Source: Alphaproteobacteria bacterium (GTDB taxonomy: Bacteria; Pseudomonadota; Alphaproteobacteria; ATCC43930; CGMCC-115725). Taken from it: 42,962 nucleotides of DNA. The notes under the pieces are model-generated. The model worked only from the letters and a program-made list of their open reading frames with translations, was not told the origin of the DNA and did not search any database. Every line of letters begins with the position of its first letter. Position 1 is the first letter of the stretch. Where the stretch lies: contig JASHOB010000061.1 of assembly GCA_030041335.1 (NCBI GenBank), positions 1-42,962 of the forward strand, given 5' to 3'. This document shows positions 12,744 through 28,257 of the stretch, piece by piece. The translations under genes and the position numbers were made by a program.

Positions 12744-12839
12744 CTCCAAGGCTTGAATGTACGAGGTGGGTTGCCGCCGATAGGCTAGCGCTGATGCCGA
12801 AGAGTGCAGTGCACCGGGCCTAAAAGCATTCAGGCCCTA

Positions 12840-14174
12840 CTAGGCATCGAGCTCCGATAGCCAACGCAGCGCGCGCAGGCCAGGCGCGAAGAAGTACTCG
12901 CCTCCACGCGTCACCACGAAACGCGGCAGACCCTGCAGGCGCCGGCGAATGGGCGCCTTGGGAATCGTGAACGCTCCCGCCCCATCATTTGCGCCGGCAA
13001 TCGGGTCCTTGTTACCGCCCCCTCCGAAGAAGTCGCCATCATTCATCCACTCTCGCTGGACGAACTCGAACTGCCGATCCAAACGCGAGCCAACAAAGAC
13101 GAACGCCAATCCGCGATCGGCGCCGTCATCCTCTGAGATTCCCTCCGGAAGTAACGGGCCGTAACTGGTGCCGCGGCGGATCATTCGATGCAGCCGCGGA
13201 GTGCCGCTCACATTGGCGTCGCGTGGATTTGCTCGCCGAATGTGCGATCCCGGCGGCGTCTTGAGCCCCTTCGGGTCGTCGTCCTCATACATGAAGGCGT
13301 TGTTTCGCTTGGGATCGGCGCCTAATTCCGGATCATCGCGCATCGGGCTGAGTGCCAGCGGCGCGCCACTTTGCCAACGCCCCATCATCTTTGCTCCGAG
13401 GTATGCTTCTTCTTCTAGACTCGATGCGTTCGCCTTCAGGTACTGGCGGAATTTTGCGACGCGCTGGTGCAGCTTTCGAAAGACGACGTACGTGCCGTTG
13501 CGTCCGAGAATCTCCGGCTGCGGCATGGGCGGATACTCGTTGGTCTCGTCGCGATACCCGAGAAAGAATTCGCCGGCTCGCAGCGGTGGTTCCGAAGGAT
13601 TGCTTCCAGGAATGCCGCTCCCCTCGACCGCTGGATGACTGATGCCGTCCCTGAATCCAAAATGCTCTTTTTCGGAAGCAAGCGCGTAACAATCGAGGCG
13701 CCAAATGAGGCTGATCCCCGACATCGCCTCGTACGTTTTGTGGGCGCGCTCGAGAATCGCTTCGAGCCGCGACTTGTCGGGCGAGAGCGCCGATATTCCA
13801 AGGTGGACATCCGGGCTGCCGAGCGGCTTTTCCCAATTTTCAGGAGCGCTTTCGCCGACGTCGCCTAGCATCGCGGCACGCGCCGCCATCCCCTGTTTGA
13901 ATGGGAGCGGAAATGTGTCGAGCGCATCCTGAGGCAGACCGAGCGCCTTCAGGCCTTGGAAGGTCAGCGCGGCGCTTACCCAGGCCTCTCGATCGACGTG
14001 CGCCGGATCCGTTGCGGGCATGAGAACGGGGATAAGTCGCCGCAGAACTTCGCGACCGGCGTGCTTATCGTCAATACGCAGCACGATATAGGTACCGGCA
14101 TACGGCGAGGGCCGCGGATGAAGGGCTCCGCTTTGGATGTCCGCCAACTCAAGCTCCATGGGAGCCATTTCCAT
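12840..14174 (-). CDS. DyP-type haem peroxidase
   Basis: A 444-residue dye-decolorising peroxidase, which uses H2O2 to oxidise bulky substrates. Diagnostic motifs are all present: HFGFRDGISHP with catalytic Asp at about 176, the proximal haem ligand His at about 311 in GSHIRRANPRD, and the distal Arg in MIRRGTSYG (333/334). No signal peptide or Tat motif is visible at the chosen start, so it is probably cytoplasmic. Its ATG (14172-14174) overlaps the TAA of the preceding gene by one base (TAATG), strong evidence of translational coupling; the frame remains open to 14300 inside that gene, but the longer N-terminus is a shadow. It is the last gene of the six-gene run from the epoxide-hydrolase-like gene. 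No encapsulin gene is present. Confidence 0.92.
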   Translation of the reverse strand: MEMAPMELELADIQSGALHPRPSPYAGTYIVLRIDDKHAGREVLRRLIPVLMPATDPAHVDREAWVSAALTFQGLKALGLPQDALDTFPLPFKQGMAARAAMLGDVGESAPENWEKPLGSPDVHLGISALSPDKSRLEAILERAHKTYEAMSGISLIWRLDCYALASEKEHFGFRDGISHPAVEGSGIPGSNPSEPPLRAGEFFLGYRDETNEYPPMPQPEILGRNGTYVVFRKLHQRVAKFRQYLKANASSLEEEAYLGAKMMGRWQSGAPLALSPMRDDPELGADPKRNNAFMYEDDDPKGLKTPPGSHIRRANPRDANVSGTPRLHRMIRRGTSYGPLLPEGISEDDGADRGLAFVFVGSRLDRQFEFVQREWMNDGDFFGGGGNKDPIAGANDGAGAFTIPKAPIRRRLQGLPRFVVTRGGEYFFAPGLRALRWLSELDA

Positions 14175-14785
14175 TATTCGGATGCCAGATCGAGCAGCGG
14201 CTTCAACGCCGGATGTTTGAGCGCCTCCTCGGCCTGAGGGTGCTCGAGCACTTTCTCGAACGCTTTCCGAAGCTGTTCGCCTTTCTGTACGTCGCGACAC
14301 GTTACGTTCGGGAAAGTCGGGAAAAAGCCGGCGGCGAGCACACGATTAGCGTTGAAAACGTCCTTGACGGCGCGGCTGTTCTGTTGGAGCGGGTGATCGG
14401 GGTTGGCGATGTCGCCCTCCGGCACCTCGTTCGTGTGCTGCAGGATCTTAGCGTACTCGACCCAATTGTTTCGAACGGCGAAGGTGTCGTCAATGTACGG
14501 ATCCCAATCCGTATCGAAGGAGGTCAGCCAGCAGAGCCGGGTGTCGTTGTCGAACAGCACGTGCCTGACATCGTGCACCCCGATCTTGACATTGACCGCG
14601 ACGACTCTGGGGTCCTCGAACTGTTTTCGAAATGGTGTCTCATAGAAGTTTCGGATCGCTTCCCGGATCAGCTTCTCGTGGCCCGGTTTCACCGTGTAGA
14701 ACATGGTGACTTCGCCGCGCTTTCCGGTCTTCGTCCCCATGTAGCTGGTGGCCGCTAGAGCCGCTTCAACGTCTTTCGTTGCCAC
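14174..14785 (-). CDS. DyP-coupled conserved hypothetical protein
   Basis: A 203-residue soluble protein with a GTG start preceded by GAGGAGG six bases away. The first half (GEVTMFYTVKPGHEKLIREA, then DVRHVLFDNDTRLCWLTSFD and WDPYID) resembles the ferredoxin-like (antibiotic-monooxygenase-like) domains that occur next to or fused with peroxidases in proteobacteria. The second half is helical, with PNVTCRDVQKGEQLRKAFEKV. That fold call is by resemblance only. Its stop overlaps the DyP start, so the two products are probably made in fixed ratio and may interact. It could be a haem-handling or substrate-binding partner, which is inference. Confidence 0.75.
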   Translation of the reverse strand: MATKDVEAALAATSYMGTKTGKRGEVTMFYTVKPGHEKLIREAIRNFYETPFRKQFEDPRVVAVNVKIGVHDVRHVLFDNDTRLCWLTSFDTDWDPYIDDTFAVRNNWVEYAKILQHTNEVPEGDIANPDHPLQQNSRAVKDVFNANRVLAAGFFPTFPNVTCRDVQKGEQLRKAFEKVLEHPQAEEALKHPALKPLLDLASE

Positions 14786-14823
14786 GGGTTACCTCCTCGA
14801 TCGTCTTTAAGGATCGGACATCA

Positions 14824-16227
14824 TCAGTACGTTGTCTCTATCGCGGCTCCTTTGAGTCGCAAGAGTCCGTCAAACGTCGCGTATTTGTAGGCGTAGGAAT
14901 AGGTGGGGGTATTCAGCGTGACCGCGTTGAGGTCGTCGAGCCCGCCGCCAAAATGGATCACCATCTGCCCGATTCCTACGAGCTCGGAAGCGATGTCCCC
15001 AAGACAATGGACGCCGAGAACGCGCCGATCGTCCTTTCGGAAGAGCAGCTTCAACAGCCCCCCGTGACCGGTGATCGCCCCTCGCGCTGTGATGGCGAGC
15101 TCGCTTCGGCCGACCTCATACTCGATCTTCGCAGCCCGACACTGCTCTTCGGTGAAACCAGCGCCTGCAACTTCCGGCATCCCATAGACCGCCGAAACGG
15201 GGAGCGGATCCACGACCTTTTTGAACGGGATGTCGAAGGCATGGCACGCCGCACAGCGACCCTGTTCCATAGCGATCGACGCCAATGACGGCGCGATCAC
15301 GTCTCCCACGGCATAGATCCCATCGGCCGTCGTGCGAAACTGCTCGTCGACGACGATCCGGCCGCGGCCGTCGAGCTGCACGCCGACCTCTTCCAAGCCT
15401 AGGCCCTCAGTATTGGCGACGCGGCCGGCCGCGAAGAGCACCGCGCCGGTCTCGAACGTCGCGCCTGTGGAGAGGGTTACTGCGAGTTTGCCGTTCCCGC
15501 GATCGATCGCGTCGGCGCCCGCGCCCAAGAAGAGCTCGACATCCCACTGTTCAAACAGCTGCGCCAAACGACCGGCCACCTCGCTATCCATCATCGGAAG
15601 GAGCCGGTCTTCTCTGTTGCAAAGCTTCACCTTCACGCCAAGGGCATTAAAGATCGTTGTAAACTCTACACCCACCGGACCACCGCCGACGATGAGAAGA
15701 TCGGTGGGCAGACGGCCGATCGTGAAGATGTTGTCGGTGTCGAATACCGCCGGATCCTCAAACGGGAAATTCGCAGGCCGAAGAGGCCGGGACCCCGTCG
15801 CAACGATGATGGTCTTCGCGAACAGCGTTCGCTCGGCGCCATCGGGCAAGGTAACAACCACGCTTCGCCTCGGGCCGATGCGAGCCGCGCCTTCAAGGTA
15901 TTCGATCCCCCAGTCGGCTATCTGTCCTCGGATGACGCGCTGCAGCTGTTCGGAGACGAATCGAGCGCGTTCGCGGATCTTCGCGGGTGCGACGTCCGGC
16001 GGTGCGGACATCGAGACGCCGTAAATGTCGCGTTCGTGGAAACCGGTGAAGTAGAGCGCGGCCTCACGGAGCGTTTTCGTCGGAGCACCTCCGGTCGTCG
16101 TCACAGCGCCGCCGGGCTTCTGCCCCTCCACGACAATCGAGCGATGACCGAACGCCGATGCCACGCTCGCCGAGCTTTGGCCCGCCGGACCGCTGCCGAT
16201 CACGACGAGATCGTAGGATTCACTCAT
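14824..16227 (-). CDS. Pyridine-nucleotide flavoprotein, SthA-like, non-disulfide
   Basis: A 467-residue two-dinucleotide-binding flavoprotein with FAD motif GSGPAG (11-16), NAD(P)-binding GGGPVG, and the second FAD motif YAVGDVIAP. Its overall length and C-terminal dimerisation domain match the disulfide-reductase family and most resemble soluble pyridine nucleotide transhydrogenase. The active-site stretch reads GGAVTTTGGAPTKTLRE where reductases have C-x4-C, so both redox cysteines are gone. The C-terminal His-Glu pair is also replaced (NTPTYSYAYKYA). It should therefore transfer hydride between nucleotides or to another acceptor and not reduce disulfides. Its ATG overlaps the TPR stop by four bases (ATGA, 16224-16227). 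It may supply reducing equivalents or peroxide to the DyP enzyme downstream, which is inference. Confidence 0.85.
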   Translation of the reverse strand: MSESYDLVVIGSGPAGQSSASVASAFGHRSIVVEGQKPGGAVTTTGGAPTKTLREAALYFTGFHERDIYGVSMSAPPDVAPAKIRERARFVSEQLQRVIRGQIADWGIEYLEGAARIGPRRSVVVTLPDGAERTLFAKTIIVATGSRPLRPANFPFEDPAVFDTDNIFTIGRLPTDLLIVGGGPVGVEFTTIFNALGVKVKLCNREDRLLPMMDSEVAGRLAQLFEQWDVELFLGAGADAIDRGNGKLAVTLSTGATFETGAVLFAAGRVANTEGLGLEEVGVQLDGRGRIVVDEQFRTTADGIYAVGDVIAPSLASIAMEQGRCAACHAFDIPFKKVVDPLPVSAVYGMPEVAGAGFTEEQCRAAKIEYEVGRSELAITARGAITGHGGLLKLLFRKDDRRVLGVHCLGDIASELVGIGQMVIHFGGGLDDLNAVTLNTPTYSYAYKYATFDGLLRLKGAAIETTY

Positions 16228-17216
16228 TTCGCGCAGGCTCGAGCGAATAAGTGTTGAGCCCGGCGCGTCTTGCGAAGCTCGAGATTCATTGTGGCTAAGC
16301 GTAACGCCCGATCGCGGTCACCATCCGCCTCGAGCCAAAACTCAGCCGCGTGATCGGCAAAGGCCTCGGGGTGACGCGTCATGAGTTCATCGTAGCGCGC
16401 CGCGGCCGCGCTGCGCCACTCGCGGGCTTCCTCCTCGTGCCCAGCTTCCTTCAGAATGCGAGCCAGCGAGGCTGAGTAATCGGGATCGTCGGACGACGTC
16501 GCGAGTGTAAGCAATCGAGCAACCGCACCTTCAGGTGCGCCTAGCGCCGCCTCGATCTCGGCCAGATGACCGTCCGCCGCAGCGTACGCAGGCAAAGAAC
16601 GAAGCGCCGATTCGAACCAAATGCGAGCCTGATGGAGATCCCCCTCCTCCAACCACATGTGGCCGCGCTGGAAGTCGAGCAACGCTGGCGGAAATGGCGA
16701 TACGTTGCGGTAGCAAGCGCGGCTCTCGTCGAACAACTGCTCGGCTATCTCGATCTCCCCGCAATCCGCGTGCAGCGTAGCCAGGGCTCCGAGCGAATCG
16801 AATTCGGCTCGGCGCGTCGCGACCTTGTCGTAGATCGCGATGGCGTCGTCGTAACGTCCGACCGCCTGGAAAATGCTTGCGCGCTCCGCGTCGATGTCGG
16901 CGCGATCCGCGCCGAGGTCGTGCGCGGTGTCGAGGTCTGAAAGCGCTTCGGAGAAGCGATGGAATCCGATTCTCACCCGAGCGCGCGCAACAAAAGCCGC
17001 CGGGTCAGTAGGCGCATCGCGGGCCAGCTTCTCCGCTGCCGCTTCAGCCCACTCGTAATCGCTAATTCTACTGCGGACTTGACCCCGCAGCGCAATCAGC
17101 TCGATGAGCGTGGTCTTGTCGGCGATCCCGGTCCAACCGGCCTCGATCCGCCGTTCAAGGCTTTCGATTTGCGCCTGAAGATTGATCATGGCGAGGGTGC
17201 CGGCCGTCAGATGCAT
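16224..17216 (-). CDS. Tetratricopeptide-repeat protein
   Basis: A 330-residue all-helical protein with several degenerate TPR units, for example RFSEALSDLDTAHDLGADRA, RYDDAIAIYDKVATRRAEF and GDLHQARIWFESALRSLP. No signal peptide or membrane segment, so it should be cytoplasmic. TPRs mediate protein-protein contacts, so it may scaffold the products of this operon. It starts 12 bases after the DUF4331 stop and ends in a 4-base overlap with the flavoprotein gene. The start at 17216 lacks a clear Shine-Dalgarno; an internal ATG at 17189 (MINLQAQIESLE) is an alternative, and either could rely on coupling. Confidence 0.85.
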   Translation of the reverse strand: MHLTAGTLAMINLQAQIESLERRIEAGWTGIADKTTLIELIALRGQVRSRISDYEWAEAAAEKLARDAPTDPAAFVARARVRIGFHRFSEALSDLDTAHDLGADRADIDAERASIFQAVGRYDDAIAIYDKVATRRAEFDSLGALATLHADCGEIEIAEQLFDESRACYRNVSPFPPALLDFQRGHMWLEEGDLHQARIWFESALRSLPAYAAADGHLAEIEAALGAPEGAVARLLTLATSSDDPDYSASLARILKEAGHEEEAREWRSAAAARYDELMTRHPEAFADHAAEFWLEADGDRDRALRLATMNLELRKTRRAQHLFARACAK

Positions 17217-17228
17217 CTTGCTATCGGC

Positions 17229-18374
17229 TCAGTTTGATACGATCTCGGGAGCTTTTGGTACCGGTGGGTTCGGCTCCGGCGGCGCGAGGTATGGGAACGT
17301 TGGTGACGCGCGGACCGTTGCCTGGTCCACGCCGTCGCTAATTCGCGGCCCGTTGCCGCCGTTGACCATGATCGTGAGGAACGTGTCGATTGCATCGTCG
17401 TTGAGCGATCGGCCACCACACGTCTGATGTGGTATGCGTTTCAGAGCGCTTTGCTCAATCTCGAAGTAACTATCCGGGGCGTACGGCTTTGAGAGGTCGA
17501 TCACCATGAAATCGGACAAGAAGAGCGCCAACAAGGGGTGAGCGCTGCCAGAGTCGAGCGGCCAATCGACCTTTCCATCGAGGCTATCCCAGAACGCAAG
17601 ATTGGAGTTCATTCGGGTACGAAGGGCCCCGCCATAGGCGGGGCCGAGCTTGAACGCATCCTCCTGGTTATAGAGATCGCGAAGCTCGATGTCGCGATTA
17701 ACGGTGTCAAAGTCCTTGGGGAATACGAGCAGATTCTTGACGTCCGGACGACCGTAGCGTTCCAAGCGAATTTCCATCGGACCGGTCGTGACCGTTTCGC
17801 CGACGACGGCAAAAAGCGGCCCATCGCCCGGATCGAATGTTCTCGCAATATCGAGTTCGATGACGATGCTCAGTACGTTCTGGCGGAACATCGTCGAGTT
17901 TCCTTGTGCGGCAAAGGCGAGCTTCCGTGTGACGATGGTCTCGAGGGCTTTCCTTCCATCGAAAAAAAACGGGTCCATCCGAACTCCCGCAAAGACACGC
18001 AATCCCCGACTCTCTGAGCCCAGTTCGTCATTCACGTTGAAGCGCACCGTTGCTCCGGCCGAAGTTGTGCAACTCCCTTTCTGCACGAGCGAATCGCCGT
18101 CGCCCGATGGGAGCGCAAAACGACATCCAATCGTGTACTCTTTCCTTCCGACCGCGAACAACGATCCTGGATGATTCGGAGCAATTGTCGCGGGTCGCAG
18201 ACGCAATCGATACTCGACCGCATCCGAGAAGAGCGCCGCGGTTCCGGCGAACGGAAAGACATTGAGCACCAAGACGAGCGTGCCGGACTGTTGCGGACTC
18301 GGGAAGGCATACATATCGGTGATGTCCACAACGGGATCCGCGAAGGCTCGGGGCCCAGAAGCATGGTCCGACAT
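17229..18374 (-). CDS. DUF4331 family protein
   Basis: A 381-residue protein that begins with the DUF4331 signature: DITDMYAFPSPQQSGTLVLV, followed by beta-strand-rich segments (VEYRLRLRPATI, GLRVFAGVRMDPFFFDG) and the family C-terminus RIPHQTCGGRSLNDDAIDT. Some family members are secreted, but no signal peptide is seen here, so this one is predicted cytoplasmic. The function of the family is not established; the R-x-D-P-F-F-x-D motif and the conserved Asp residues suggest a metal- or ligand-binding beta structure. A Shine-Dalgarno (AGGT) lies upstream, and the gene follows the hydrolase gene by 49 bases in the six-gene run. Confidence 0.82.
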   Translation of the reverse strand: MSDHASGPRAFADPVVDITDMYAFPSPQQSGTLVLVLNVFPFAGTAALFSDAVEYRLRLRPATIAPNHPGSLFAVGRKEYTIGCRFALPSGDGDSLVQKGSCTTSAGATVRFNVNDELGSESRGLRVFAGVRMDPFFFDGRKALETIVTRKLAFAAQGNSTMFRQNVLSIVIELDIARTFDPGDGPLFAVVGETVTTGPMEIRLERYGRPDVKNLLVFPKDFDTVNRDIELRDLYNQEDAFKLGPAYGGALRTRMNSNLAFWDSLDGKVDWPLDSGSAHPLLALFLSDFMVIDLSKPYAPDSYFEIEQSALKRIPHQTCGGRSLNDDAIDTFLTIMVNGGNGPRISDGVDQATVRASPTFPYLAPPEPNPPVPKAPEIVSN

Positions 18375-18423
18375 TTCTCGCTACCTATACACTCGATTAG
18401 GGCTGTCGCAGTGGCGCAGGGCG

Positions 18424-19449
18424 CTAGTATCCAATCTCCTTGAGGAAGTTGATAACGATGGCGTTGACCTCGTCAGGCGCCTCTTCCGGCGGCATATGAC
18501 CGACGCCCGGCATCATGATGATTTCACGCATGTCCCCGAAGTTCGTCTTCAGGGATCTGAGGGCTGGCCCCTGCCGGTCGACCCCGAACAGGGTCGCAAG
18601 GGACGGGTCGCGGTCGCCGCCTACGAACAATGCAGGTTGCCGGACAGTCGCTCCGGTAAGAAACGAGGTGTTCTCCCAACCGTTGTCGATGGCCGCATAC
18701 CAGTTGTTTGCAGGTTGGATGCCGGTCCGGGTGAATTCGCTGAGATAGTAATCGAATGCCTGGTGGCTAAGATGCGGCGGTAGCTCTGTCGGCACTGTAT
18801 AGGTATCGGAAAAGGTCTCAGGCGGCTTCCAGGCCCAACGCCACTGTTTGTCGACTGGGCAAGATCCCGAAGTTGAATAGAAAACGCCCAGTAGGAACCG
18901 ACGTAGATCTCCCATAATCTCCATAGCGGCCTCTGGTTGCGCGAGGCACGACTGATAGAAAATTATACCTTGATCCTTGGAAGCCTTCTGCATGGCGGCA
19001 ACAGGGGGAACCACACCACGAGCGGAAGGCGGACTGCACATCATGACCACACCACGAACGACGTCCGGTCGCATAAGCGCGGCGTTGTACACGACAGGCG
19101 AACCCCAATCTTGACCAACAAGCACCGCTGATTTCGCGTCGAGTGCCTTTAAAAGACCAACGACATCTCCGACCAGGTGCGTAATGTTATAAGAGCTCGC
19201 GTCATGAGGGCAATCGGTTTGGCCGTACCCTCGCTGATCCACGGCGACGACGCGATAGCCCGCTGCCGCCACGGCTTTGATCTGATGACGCCACAGATAC
19301 CAAAGGAAGGGGTAGCCGTGGAGCAATATCACGAGCGGCCCTTGGCCTTCCTCAACGTAGTGCATGCGAATGCCGTTGACGGTGGCAAAACGATGGCTGA
19401 ACGTTTGAGGGTCATCGATACCGTATGCGGCGCCAAGTGAAGCTGTCAT
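18424..19449 (-). CDS. Alpha/beta hydrolase, epoxide-hydrolase type
   Basis: A 341-residue alpha/beta hydrolase of the epoxide hydrolase/haloalkane dehalogenase group. Visible are the oxyanion motif HGYP (44-47), the nucleophile elbow GQDWGSPV with Asp 114, the acid region GGDRDPS and the base His at about 318 in VGHMPPEE. An Asp nucleophile and HGYP fit epoxide hydrolysis; the Trp after the Asp is also used by dehalogenases, so substrate class is open. No signal peptide. The start has an ideal AGGAGG eight bases upstream. It is the first gene of the leftward run leading to the DyP peroxidase, so its promoter lies in 19450-19650. Confidence 0.88.
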   Translation of the reverse strand: MTASLGAAYGIDDPQTFSHRFATVNGIRMHYVEEGQGPLVILLHGYPFLWYLWRHQIKAVAAAGYRVVAVDQRGYGQTDCPHDASSYNITHLVGDVVGLLKALDAKSAVLVGQDWGSPVVYNAALMRPDVVRGVVMMCSPPSARGVVPPVAAMQKASKDQGIIFYQSCLAQPEAAMEIMGDLRRFLLGVFYSTSGSCPVDKQWRWAWKPPETFSDTYTVPTELPPHLSHQAFDYYLSEFTRTGIQPANNWYAAIDNGWENTSFLTGATVRQPALFVGGDRDPSLATLFGVDRQGPALRSLKTNFGDMREIIMMPGVGHMPPEEAPDEVNAIVINFLKEIGY

Positions 19450-20246: not shown

Positions 20247-21215
20247 CTATTCACCTACGGGCTCAGCCTCGGGGAATTTCCAAGTGCCATTTAATATTTC
20301 GGGGCGCGGACGATAAAGTCGCACGGTGTAGTTCCAGCCCGGCGTGATTGGCAGGCAATTCGGAATCTTCCCGTCGCAGCCACCGAATTGAATAGTGACA
20401 GTACCATTTGAATCTTTTTCCGCCGTGATGTTGTTCACCGAATAGGCGTTCTCGGCATTCTTCTCAAAATAGCCTGCTGCATTGTAGACACTGATCGACC
20501 AGAAAGCGTCAACCGGCACGTCCTTGACGCTGAGCCTGTAAACGGTCCTGCCGTCGTTCTTGGCCGGTACACCCCCGACATAGGTCGCATCCTTATCGGG
20601 ATTGCCACCCCATCCGGCGGCGGTCCCGATTAAATGGGTTATCGGGTCGACTTGGTCCTTAGTACCGAACGCGTGCTTGAAGCCCGTCGAGTGCCCGGCG
20701 AGCATCAACAAAGCTTTCCGAATTTCGCTCAAACTTGCCTGATCCCAATTCGGCAGTTCGAGCTTTCCGACCTCCTTCTGGTCGACTTTGATCGCATCCT
20801 GAAGCTTGTGAACCGCATCGAGGTCCCTTGGATCATTGGGATCGACCAATGTGCGGATCGCCACCATGACATAGCGGGTGCCGACATTCTGCTCGGTGAG
20901 CGTGTGCGTCCCAGCGTCGTAAGCGACGAAGGGCACGTAATGGTCCTCGTTGATGATCTGCAATGACATGAAGCGCTTGCCGGTGTCTGGCAGGGTGATC
21001 GTGACCGGCGCCGCGGCGAGATCGAACACGCCGAAGGAATAGAGCGTGTCGCGGTTCAACCGAATGATCGTCTGATGATCGATTGAAGCAGGCTCACGGT
21101 TATGAGCGAGCCTCCCAAGGCCGGCCTCCTTCACGTTGGTGGTCAGATAGTGGTCAGACTCAGCCCGCGCAAAGTTTTGAACCGTGACCGGTACGGTGGC
21201 GTCGGCAGCGCTCAT
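20247..21215 (-). CDS. DUF1254/DUF1214 domain protein
   Basis: A 322-residue protein with the N-terminal DUF1254-like part (VQNFARAESDHYLTTNV, then INRDTLYSFGVFDL-type segment: IRLNRDTLYSFGVFDLAA) and C-terminal DUF1214 part (VDAFWSISVYNAAGYFEKN and NYTVRLYRPRPEILNGTW). Family members are usually exported and of unknown function, sometimes found with detoxification genes. This copy has no signal peptide at the chosen start MSAADATVP; an extended start at 21269 adds only a basic stretch. AGGAGG lies 12 bases before the chosen ATG, rather far. The two halves are shorter than in many two-domain members, so it may be a compact variant. Confidence 0.8.
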   Translation of the reverse strand: MSAADATVPVTVQNFARAESDHYLTTNVKEAGLGRLAHNREPASIDHQTIIRLNRDTLYSFGVFDLAAAPVTITLPDTGKRFMSLQIINEDHYVPFVAYDAGTHTLTEQNVGTRYVMVAIRTLVDPNDPRDLDAVHKLQDAIKVDQKEVGKLELPNWDQASLSEIRKALLMLAGHSTGFKHAFGTKDQVDPITHLIGTAAGWGGNPDKDATYVGGVPAKNDGRTVYRLSVKDVPVDAFWSISVYNAAGYFEKNAENAYSVNNITAEKDSNGTVTIQFGGCDGKIPNCLPITPGWNYTVRLYRPRPEILNGTWKFPEAEPVGE

Positions 21216-21628
21216 CAGGGTCTTACTCCTCCTGTGCCACTGCATGAGCCTATGCCCACGATATGGCACGTCAACGTCGACGATTGATCTCGTTCAAGCA
21301 TCGGCAATGTCGTCTTGTTTCCTCTATGTTCTCACGGTTCGGCGGGCGGCGACCCTTCGTCATCATCTTGCAGAAGCTCGTCGAGGACCTCCCAATGCTC
21401 ATGGAGCCGGCATCCTGGATAATTGCATTTTTGGATATAGTCCGAACTGTGCAGCTCTCGCCGCGCGAGGCGCTTGTCGCCGGGATGGCGGAATTTTGGG
21501 GATGAGCGGAAGGCAGCCTGCCAATCATTTCATAGGCGTTTTTTGGCCCGTCCAACAGGTGCGGCGCGCGATGGCAAAGGGCAAGCCATGCCCGCCAATT
21601 GAAAGGGCTTGTTGAGGAGTGAGAGATA

Positions 21629-26742: not shown

Positions 26743-28257
26743 CTACACGCGCTCCATTCCAACCTCCGCCTCGAGGCTAGCGAGATCTCGATAAATCGAT
26801 GCGCACGCGACCACGCGCTCCTTGCGCTTATAGGAGACGAGGCAATCCTTCGCTACAACATTACCGTCGACCGTGATCTCGTCCCAGCGCTCGGCATGGC
26901 CGACATAATTGATCGGTACGTCGTAGTGCTGACTCCAGAAGAATGGCACAGCGTCGAACCGCTTGCGGAGGCCCAACATGTTAAGCGCGGCGGTCTGGCC
27001 TTGACGTTGTGCAACAACCCAATGCTCAACGCGGATCATCTCTCCGGAACGAGGGTCGGGCCACCGCGCGATGTCACCGGCGGCATAGATGCCGTTGACG
27101 CTTGTCTCGAGGAACTCGTTCACAAGTACGCCCCGATCGATGGCGAGTCCAGCCTGTTCGGCTAATTGCAGGCGTGGCCGCACGCCGATGCCGACCACAA
27201 CGAGGTCGGCATCGATCGTGCCGCCGCCGCTCAAAGTCGCACGCAAGCCGTCGAACCTTGTTACCCTGTTCTCTAGATGAAAAACGACGCCGTGTTCCTC
27301 GTGCAAAGCGCGAATGAAATCGCCCATCTGGCTCCCCATGATCCGTTCCATGGGGCGCTTATCGGGTGCAACCACATGGACTTCGATCTCGCGCGCTCGC
27401 AGCGCCGCTGCCGCCTCGAGCCCGATGAAGCTCGCGCCGATCACCAGTGCGCAACGCGCGCCTTTGGTCGCGGCGATGATCGAGCGGCAATCTGCGATCG
27501 AGCGTAGCGTGTGAACATGCGGCTGCTCGGAACCTGGGATCGATAGGCGCACGGGTTCGGCGCCAGTGGCGAGCAAGAGCCGATCATAGGCTAGTTTGCG
27601 GCCGGCAGCGCTCAGCACGCATGCTTTGGTATCGATGTCGGTGACCTCGCTACCCAGATGCAATTCGATCCCCGCCTCGACGTAGAAGCTGGGGGGTCGT
27701 AGCGGGATCCAGTCTTCGGGCGCGGCGCCGGCGAGATAGTCCTTGGAAAGGTTCGGCCGATCGACTGGTCCCTCGGGATCGCTGCTCAGCAAGAGGATGC
27801 TGCCGCGAAAATCCACCCGGCGAAGCATCTCCGCCGCGGCAAAGCCCGCAGCGCCTCCACCGACGATTACGATCCTTCCCGGAACATCCGCGGGGAGTTT
27901 AACGCGAGGCTTCAACTTCTCCAGCTTCTCATGCACGAAGACTCGGCCATCGCGTTGCTCGACCCGCCAGCATGTGAGCGCGGAGAGGGCCGGAGCACGA
28001 ATGGCCTCGCCGGTGCGCATATCGAAGACCGCGTGATGCCAGGGGCATCGGATCGAGCCATTATCAACCAGCCCCTCGGCAAGCGGCCCGTGGTAATGGC
28101 TGCAGTGCGCGGCGATAGCACAAATCTCTCCGCCGGCTCGGACGATCAGGACTTCTTCCTCACCAACATGACCCACGAGCATGCCGCCGGCCAAGTCCGT
28201 GAGCGGGACGCCAGCCGCGAGATCGGGACCATTTGGTAATGATTGGTCTTGTGTCAT
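26743..28257 (-). CDS. Rieske-ferredoxin reductase fusion (AIF-like)
   Basis: A 504-residue fusion. Residues about 10-110 form a Rieske [2Fe-2S] domain with cluster ligands C-x-H in HCSHYHGPL and C-x-x-H in CPWHHAVFD. The rest is a ferredoxin/rubredoxin-type NAD(P)H reductase with FAD motif IVIVGGGAAGFAAAEML, the NAD-binding segment ALVIGASFIGLEAAAALRA, the YAAGDIARWPDP motif and the C-terminal reductase domain. This is the layout of Nfrl/AIFL proteins and some oxygenase reductases. It should move electrons from NAD(P)H through FAD to the Rieske centre or to a separate partner. No oxygenase is adjacent. The start has GAGAGG six bases upstream. Confidence 0.92.
   Translation of the reverse strand: MTQDQSLPNGPDLAAGVPLTDLAGGMLVGHVGEEEVLIVRAGGEICAIAAHCSHYHGPLAEGLVDNGSIRCPWHHAVFDMRTGEAIRAPALSALTCWRVEQRDGRVFVHEKLEKLKPRVKLPADVPGRIVIVGGGAAGFAAAEMLRRVDFRGSILLLSSDPEGPVDRPNLSKDYLAGAAPEDWIPLRPPSFYVEAGIELHLGSEVTDIDTKACVLSAAGRKLAYDRLLLATGAEPVRLSIPGSEQPHVHTLRSIADCRSIIAATKGARCALVIGASFIGLEAAAALRAREIEVHVVAPDKRPMERIMGSQMGDFIRALHEEHGVVFHLENRVTRFDGLRATLSGGGTIDADLVVVGIGVRPRLQLAEQAGLAIDRGVLVNEFLETSVNGIYAAGDIARWPDPRSGEMIRVEHWVVAQRQGQTAALNMLGLRKRFDAVPFFWSQHYDVPINYVGHAERWDEITVDGNVVAKDCLVSYKRKERVVACASIYRDLASLEAEVGMERV

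Follow-up and report, generated by a model that had tools for sequence, protein, structure and literature searches.

A recurrent gene set of a DyP-type peroxidase, its partner protein, DUF4331 and TPR proteins in an alphaproteobacterial six-gene cluster

Results

Gene Organisation of the Locus

The present analysis concerns a cluster of six genes around a DyP-type peroxidase on contig JASHOB010000061.1 of the alphaproteobacterial assembly GCA_030041335.1, of which a stretch of 42,962 nucleotides (positions 1 to 42,962, referred to as the window) was analysed. All six genes lie on the minus strand. Read in their own direction, they encode an alpha/beta hydrolase resembling the epoxide hydrolase EphA (18424-19449; Abhydrolase_1, 83 bits; EphA 5cw2, 219 bits), a DUF4331 protein of 381 amino acids (17229-18374; PF14224, 95 bits at a cut-off of 27), a TPR protein of 330 amino acids (16224-17216; TPR_19, 34.5 bits), a flavoprotein of the transhydrogenase/disulfide-reductase fold devoid of the cysteine motif (14824-16227; Pyr_redox_2, 179 bits, and Pyr_redox_dim), a protein of 203 amino acids, here termed the DyP partner protein, with a predicted ferredoxin-like alpha+beta barrel (14174-14785), and a DyP-type peroxidase of the Deinococcus radiodurans type (12840-14174; TIGR01413, 128.7 bits at a cut-off of 100.5). 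The DyP gene starts with ATG at 14174; a longer alternative frame with a GTG start runs from 14300.

The tight spacing described in the initial annotation, with intergenic gaps of 49, 12 and 38 bases, an ATGA overlap and a TAATG overlap, was found to be exact in the sequence at all coordinates. The gap following DyP (12750-12839, minus strand) contains an inverted repeat, GGGCCT...AGGCCC, that lacks a T run, as read from the sequence, which is a possible operon end and was not called as a terminator in the terminator scan. In line with the expectation of the initial annotation that no terminator separates DyP from the hydrolase, no terminator-like site was present in any cluster gap; this is a weak test, given that the scan of the window gave about as many sites as shuffled sequence would (2 promoters where 2.1 are expected, and 7 terminators where the expectation is 6.7), and for this reason an operon is neither proven nor broken by it. 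Structured RNA reaching gathering scores was not found between 11500 and 22000.

Recurrence of the Gene Set

To assess recurrence of the gene set, genome contigs were scanned with a six-row DUF4331 alignment. The loci were reached via two DUF4331 peptide patterns, so that other DUF4331 types lie outside the sample of 79 distinct loci, whose titles name actinobacteria, Chloroflexi, a cyanobacterium, proteobacteria, Eremiobacterota and others. The open frames of these loci were then searched with a profile for each gene, and matches within 8 kb of DUF4331 were counted, using cut-offs of >90 bits for RoxA-like proteins (one-sequence profile), >500 bits for the flavoprotein clade (150-500 bits for merely similar flavoproteins) and >500 bits for the hydrolase. 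Rows covering <70% of the query were dropped; of the remaining rows, the alignments took 53 of 57 for the partner and 54 of 78 for DUF4331.

It was found that 50 of the 79 loci have a DyP gene and 26 a gene for a RoxA-like di-haem protein, with both occurring together in none and neither in three; a TPR gene is present in 67. Among the 50 DyP loci, the partner gene accompanies DyP in 48 (37 with the family of the window, 11 with a second family, mostly from rhizobia), the two cases without it being L023, where the contig begins inside DyP, and L066. TPR is encoded in 43 of them, and DyP lies on the DUF4331 strand in 44. The flavoprotein clade of the window was found in seven DyP loci, a more distant flavoprotein in another seven and the hydrolase in two. 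The full six-gene set was seen in the window only, among the loci examined. Thus, the expected co-occurrence was retrieved in other phyla for DyP, partner, DUF4331 and TPR, which form the recurrent core, and was infrequent for the flavoprotein and the hydrolase, which are minor accessories. Closest to the window in gene order is Glaciihabitans (L026), with hydrolase-DUF4331-TPR-partner-DyP, i.e., the window order minus the flavoprotein; in L037, a short contig from Eremiobacterota, the order is DUF4331-TPR-partner-DyP-hydrolase, at 68-87% identity.

A flank shorter than 7 kb limits 29 of the 79 loci; the 50 loci with both flanks longer than 7 kb comprise 37 with DyP, 10 with a RoxA-like gene and three with neither (L043, L057, L097). 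Of the 79 loci, 20 come from Streptomyces, and a single genome can account for more than one, with four in one Streptomyces and three in one Bradyrhizobium; after grouping by title-based taxon, DyP was present in 24 of 43 groups and a RoxA-like gene in 20. With three DyP genes in the 5.17 Mb of the source genome, any one gene would by chance have a DyP gene within 8 kb in about 1% of cases, a base rate taken from this one genome. As DyP is found in 50 of 79 DUF4331 loci, the grouping is not due to chance.

Two further searches pointed in the same direction. A tblastn search of plasmids with DUF4331 returned 10 records, of which the six at >=34% identity have DyP and TPR close by; the one of the four weaker records that was read, from Rhizobium leguminosarum (L021:7947-9616), is directly followed by a HupE/UreJ gene and has no DyP nearby. 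Searching 398 genomes of the phylum with the partner protein gave five matches including the source genome, and the other four all directly adjoin DyP. This adjacency strongly supports the view of the initial annotation that DyP often works with a partner.

Pairwise identities of the encoded proteins were correlated for DUF4331-TPR (r 0.96, 66 loci; maximum of 2000 permutations 0.11), a value inflated by the split of the loci into DyP and RoxA-like ones, for DyP-TPR (0.76, 42 loci), DyP-DUF4331 (0.70, 50 loci) and DyP-partner (0.64, 37 loci), and most weakly for DUF4331-partner (0.44, 36 loci), with permutation maxima of 0.11-0.19 across the gene pairs. We conclude that DyP, partner, DUF4331 and TPR almost certainly constitute a conserved four-gene functional unit.

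Distribution and Spread

The source genome has a single DUF4331 gene, that of the cluster, and close relatives of this genome are without the gene set. The partner was present in one of 43 genomes of the order, namely the source genome itself, and DUF4331 in one of 397 other genomes of the phylum. The flavoprotein clade was found in none of these 397 at E 1e-100, with up to four candidates scored per genome, nor in 43 other genomes, where the best match had 41% identity. The nearest relatives are on contigs labelled Eremiobacterota and Acidimicrobiales, both from metagenome bins whose labels may be wrong. Since the set is rare near home and its nearest relatives carry these labels, horizontal spread is probably the simplest account. 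The cluster is a real, rare and scattered module, whose function is inferred below.

Flavoprotein

Among solved structures, the flavoprotein is most closely related to a soluble transhydrogenase, and its closest named family is that of Escherichia coli SthA (PRK05249; PMC9460512), with which it has the fold class in common. It differs from SthA in having neither the CXXXXT nor the YXXXXE signature, and its 424 bits remain below the 465-bit cut-off of the NCBIfam model. For soluble transhydrogenases, an SXXXXT form of the first signature has been reported once. The eight flavoproteins of the clusters form one clade with a support of 100/100, apart from transhydrogenase-like (STH-like) proteins, whether from these genomes or from others, in a tree for which the tool warned that long branches meet. 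In 19 genomes from these loci, five matches were >50% identical, all five at the cluster itself.

In all eight cluster flavoproteins, the CXXXXT/CXXXXC motif is replaced by GG(A/T/V)(V/P)TT(T/R)GGAPTK, and the Cys position of CXXXXT is occupied by V or P, the Thr position by G; the Thr is kept in 12 of 12 STH-like rows. Likewise, the end motif YPT..E/HPT..E is replaced by TPTYSYAY or TPTYNYAY in eight of eight, the 12 STH-like rows having NYPT followed by E or D at this site. The clade also lacks the hallmarks of a disulfide reductase, with no CXXXXC and no His-Glu pair. Because both motifs are replaced throughout, the sequences exclude an active-site disulfide and make transhydrogenation doubtful.

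For SthA, passages of the published study describe that in the C45A variant, in which the motif Cys is removed, 62% of the NADH reducing equivalents go to transhydrogenation and 37% to hydrogen peroxide (H2O2), and its abstract links the conserved motif with a lower release of reactive oxygen species (PMC9460512). Further fold members with a lost disulfide are the yeast homologue Irc15p, which has no Cys pair and makes H2O2 with NADH, and LpdA of Mycobacterium tuberculosis, according to the excerpts of the respective paper (PMC6296175); their motif changes are unlike those of the cluster flavoproteins. With the disulfide and transhydrogenase motifs lost and both SthA C45A and Irc15p producing H2O2, supply of peroxide to the neighbouring DyP would be the leading reading of the flavoprotein, followed by reduction of a quinone or mediator as in LpdA. 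The initial annotation had considered the flavoprotein as a possible source of peroxide; the motif loss and SthA C45A lend this idea indirect support.

DyP Peroxidase and Its Partner Protein

DyP has the GFRDG motif, and D176, R233, H311, R333 and R334 are present in 61 of 61 aligned rows, among them the Asp of GXXDG, the proximal His and candidates for the distal Arg. The catalytic residues are thus kept and peroxidase activity is predicted. The closest solved chains are 8re3 and 8re2 (E about 1e-127) of D. radiodurans DyP (DrDyP; PMC10820274), which is of the same DyP type at ~47% identity. Like the window, the D. radiodurans record has a partner-family gene directly upstream of DyP (L106:7148-9302). 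It differs in that DyP is followed by a catalase-family gene as its next neighbour and that no DUF4331 or TPR match was found in the 17 kb searched. According to the published passages, DrDyP shows no activity at pH 7.5 and its haem is six-coordinate and low-spin, and the possibility that it interacts with other proteins, encapsulin among them, is raised; the distal Arg is numbered Arg248 in the text and Arg348 in a legend (PMC10820274). As far as these passages go, the assays were apparently performed without a partner-family protein. The source genome has two further DyP genes on different contigs (G000:C233:59906-60979 and G000:C124:9123-10007), whose TIGR01413 scores of ~290 bits each lie far above that of the window DyP.

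The partner protein matched no Pfam or NCBIfam family, and its profile retrieved chance-level rows only from the solved structures (best E 0.079). A model built from 43 rows (pLDDT 88) had dimeric alpha+beta barrels of the antibiotic-monooxygenase, mutarotase and NIPSNAP kinds as top structural matches, with the best fold match at Z 7.3 and a root-mean-square deviation of 3.0 over 95 residues, which is in the range of common arrangements, and a best Foldseek E of 0.0025. The predicted fold tentatively resembles that of the antibiotic-biosynthesis-monooxygenase/NIPSNAP barrels, from which the partner differs by extra C-terminal helices and by the lack of any sequence match above chance. Tyr97 is conserved in 58 of 58 rows and Asp100 and Arg74 in 57 of 58. 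The initial annotation had proposed that the 203-residue protein could bind haem or substrate with DyP; as no His is conserved (best column 40 of 58 rows), binding via a His ligand was rejected, and a His-ligated haem is unlikely. Two Streptomyces loci each contain two equal-scoring partner genes 6.6 kb apart, namely L012 (5510-6223 and 12145-12858), with MFS-like and TetR-like genes (by eye) in between, and L035 (1181-1894 and 7804-8517).

DUF4331, TPR and RoxA-like Loci

The DUF4331 model reached a pLDDT of 90. By profile, no solved relative was found at E up to 1, and a search for a known fold with Foldseek gave nothing at E <0.001 in the PDB or viral models; with VIA-align, the matches were sandwiches of the antibody type (Z about 6), which are a common arrangement, with no clear relative among them. 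No papers on DUF4331 were found in an open-literature search. Variants of ~500 amino acids carry a C-terminal Polyketide_cyc2 domain in three of three scanned, one from a DyP locus (L017:11326-12831) and two from RoxA-like loci (L085:10001-11494, L068:10001-11506). This domain is known for hydrophobic ligands.

The 26 RoxA-like loci (L063-L101, e.g., L085:7839-10001) have TPR in 23 cases and neither partner nor DyP in any. Seven RoxA-like proteins examined have 595-765 codons and two CXXCH motifs each. Their likeness to the RoxA-type di-haem proteins (PF21419, 4b2n) was seen in one representative (L085) and around a haem motif only (a 39-amino-acid model, 40 amino acids of 4b2n); the difference of these DUF4331 neighbours from the window lies in their never being accompanied by DyP or the partner. 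By eye, several RoxA-like proteins start with signal-like stretches, which DUF4331, having no signal peptide, and the other proteins of the window do not.

Hydrolase and Rhizobial Variants

The hydrolase has EphA (5cw2) as its best solved relative (219 bits, E 6e-64), and NCBIfam haloalkane dehalogenase models did not reach their cut-offs (at best 95.3 bits, where 241 are required). By this relatedness, an epoxide hydrolase of the alpha/beta type is predicted. The stretches GQDWG, HGYP and NWY, noted by eye, are presumably epoxide-hydrolase features. The relatives in the two DyP loci L026 and L037 have 58% and 73% identity, respectively. Rhizobial clusters contain members of the ADC family in seven loci and of the SDR family in nine. 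The Sinorhizobium cluster (L014, 6920-8149 and 15057-21329) is flanked, by annotation, by genes for 5-aminolevulinate synthase, cytochrome c, a 2Fe-2S protein and a molybdopterin oxidoreductase.

Discussion

Tentatively, and with somewhat less than even confidence, we read the cluster as a cytosolic, peroxide-driven haem-oxidation module. The flavoprotein would oxidise NAD(P)H and, having no onward thiol or nicotinamide route, would pass the electrons to O2, yielding H2O2 beside DyP. The partner may dock on DyP and open or tune the haem pocket, or bring the substrate. The substrate oxidised by DyP would be a small, hydrophobic compound, DUF4331 and TPR may carry or position substrate or product, and the hydrolase could open an epoxide where one forms. 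A hydrophobic substrate is suggested by the Polyketide_cyc2 domain fused to DUF4331 variants and by the ADC and SDR families of the rhizobial clusters.

Several points weigh against this proposal. The published oxidase rates are slow, with a kcat of 0.1 per s given for SthA in the passages cited (PMC9460512) and the H2O2 production of Irc15p being called sluggish in those of the other study (PMC6296175). Occurring in 7 and 2 of the 50 DyP loci, the flavoprotein clade and the hydrolase would not make the peroxide and epoxide steps general ones. The Pfam scan found no Polyketide_cyc2 domain in the DUF4331 protein of the window. The permutations behind the identity correlations take no account of the species tree, and DUF4331 motifs served to pick the 79 loci. 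Finally, given that signal-like N-termini were seen in the RoxA-like proteins only, it is hard to see DUF4331 docking on both haem enzymes, and a pathway shared with the RoxA-like proteins is likelier than a shared complex.

An alternative that we consider unlikely is peroxide defence, where the flavoprotein would send electrons from NAD(P)H to DyP or the partner and the set would remove H2O2 instead of making it. A catalase-family gene adjoins partner-DyP in L011, L015, L016 and L106 and is one gene off in L018, as would suit this role; DUF4331 was found in none of these five loci. However, the DUF4331, TPR, hydrolase, ADC and SDR neighbours suit metabolism better, and the set is sporadic, with DUF4331 in a single one of the 397 other phylum genomes. 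Ranking next, and improbable as well, is a quinone or redox-mediator cycle, with the flavoprotein as a quinone reductase regenerating a mediator oxidised by DyP. Its model is LpdA, a quinone-reducing enzyme in which one Cys and the His-Glu pair are missing, according to the excerpts of the paper (PMC6296175). Other pyridine-nucleotide flavoproteins in the rhizobial clusters would fit such a cycle, whereas transhydrogenases, as the closest named relatives of the window flavoprotein, do not favour it.

Handling of haem or other tetrapyrroles, with DyP and partner acting on haem or a porphyrin, appears quite improbable. The 5-aminolevulinate synthase genes at the Sinorhizobium cluster and the match of the partner fold to the haem-degrading MhuD (Z 5.3) would agree with it, but hemA is annotated in just one of nine annotated loci read (L014), the partner has no conserved His, and the deferrochelatase/peroxidase model gives 34.8 bits against a cut-off of 428. 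That the genes are chance neighbours without shared function, as the relatives lacking the set might suggest, can practically be dismissed, being refuted for the four-gene core by the DyP frequency at DUF4331 loci, though not for the hydrolase with its two other loci.

Returning to the peroxide-driven module, a more far-reaching version of it would be an intracellular oxidation machine that supplies its own peroxide through a new class of flavoprotein, akin to transhydrogenases yet devoid of their thiol and end-motif signatures, in which the barrel-type partner switches DyP on and DUF4331-TPR serves as a general handling unit of haem-oxidase pathways with either DyP or RoxA-like enzymes; this version we regard as doubtful.

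The interpretation given in the initial annotation is, overall, partly supported. It had missed the four-gene core, the association of DUF4331-TPR with another haem protein and the absence of the set from close relatives. Its statement that it knew of no described system with this set agrees with our literature search, in which none was seen among the papers listed, with most subscription papers outside its reach.

The natural role of bacterial DyPs and the source of their peroxide are open questions, for which the cluster offers a partner, a candidate supplier of peroxide and a hint at the substrate. Via the partner-family gene, the inactivity of DrDyP at neutral pH becomes directly testable. 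DUF4331 gains a first functional setting, and recurrence of the four genes in distant bacteria points to an undescribed oxidation system.

Elsewhere in the window, a DUF1254/DUF1214 gene (20247-21269) lies on the same strand ~800 bases upstream of the hydrolase, and a gene at 26743-28257 encodes a Rieske domain joined to a pyridine-nucleotide reductase in one protein.

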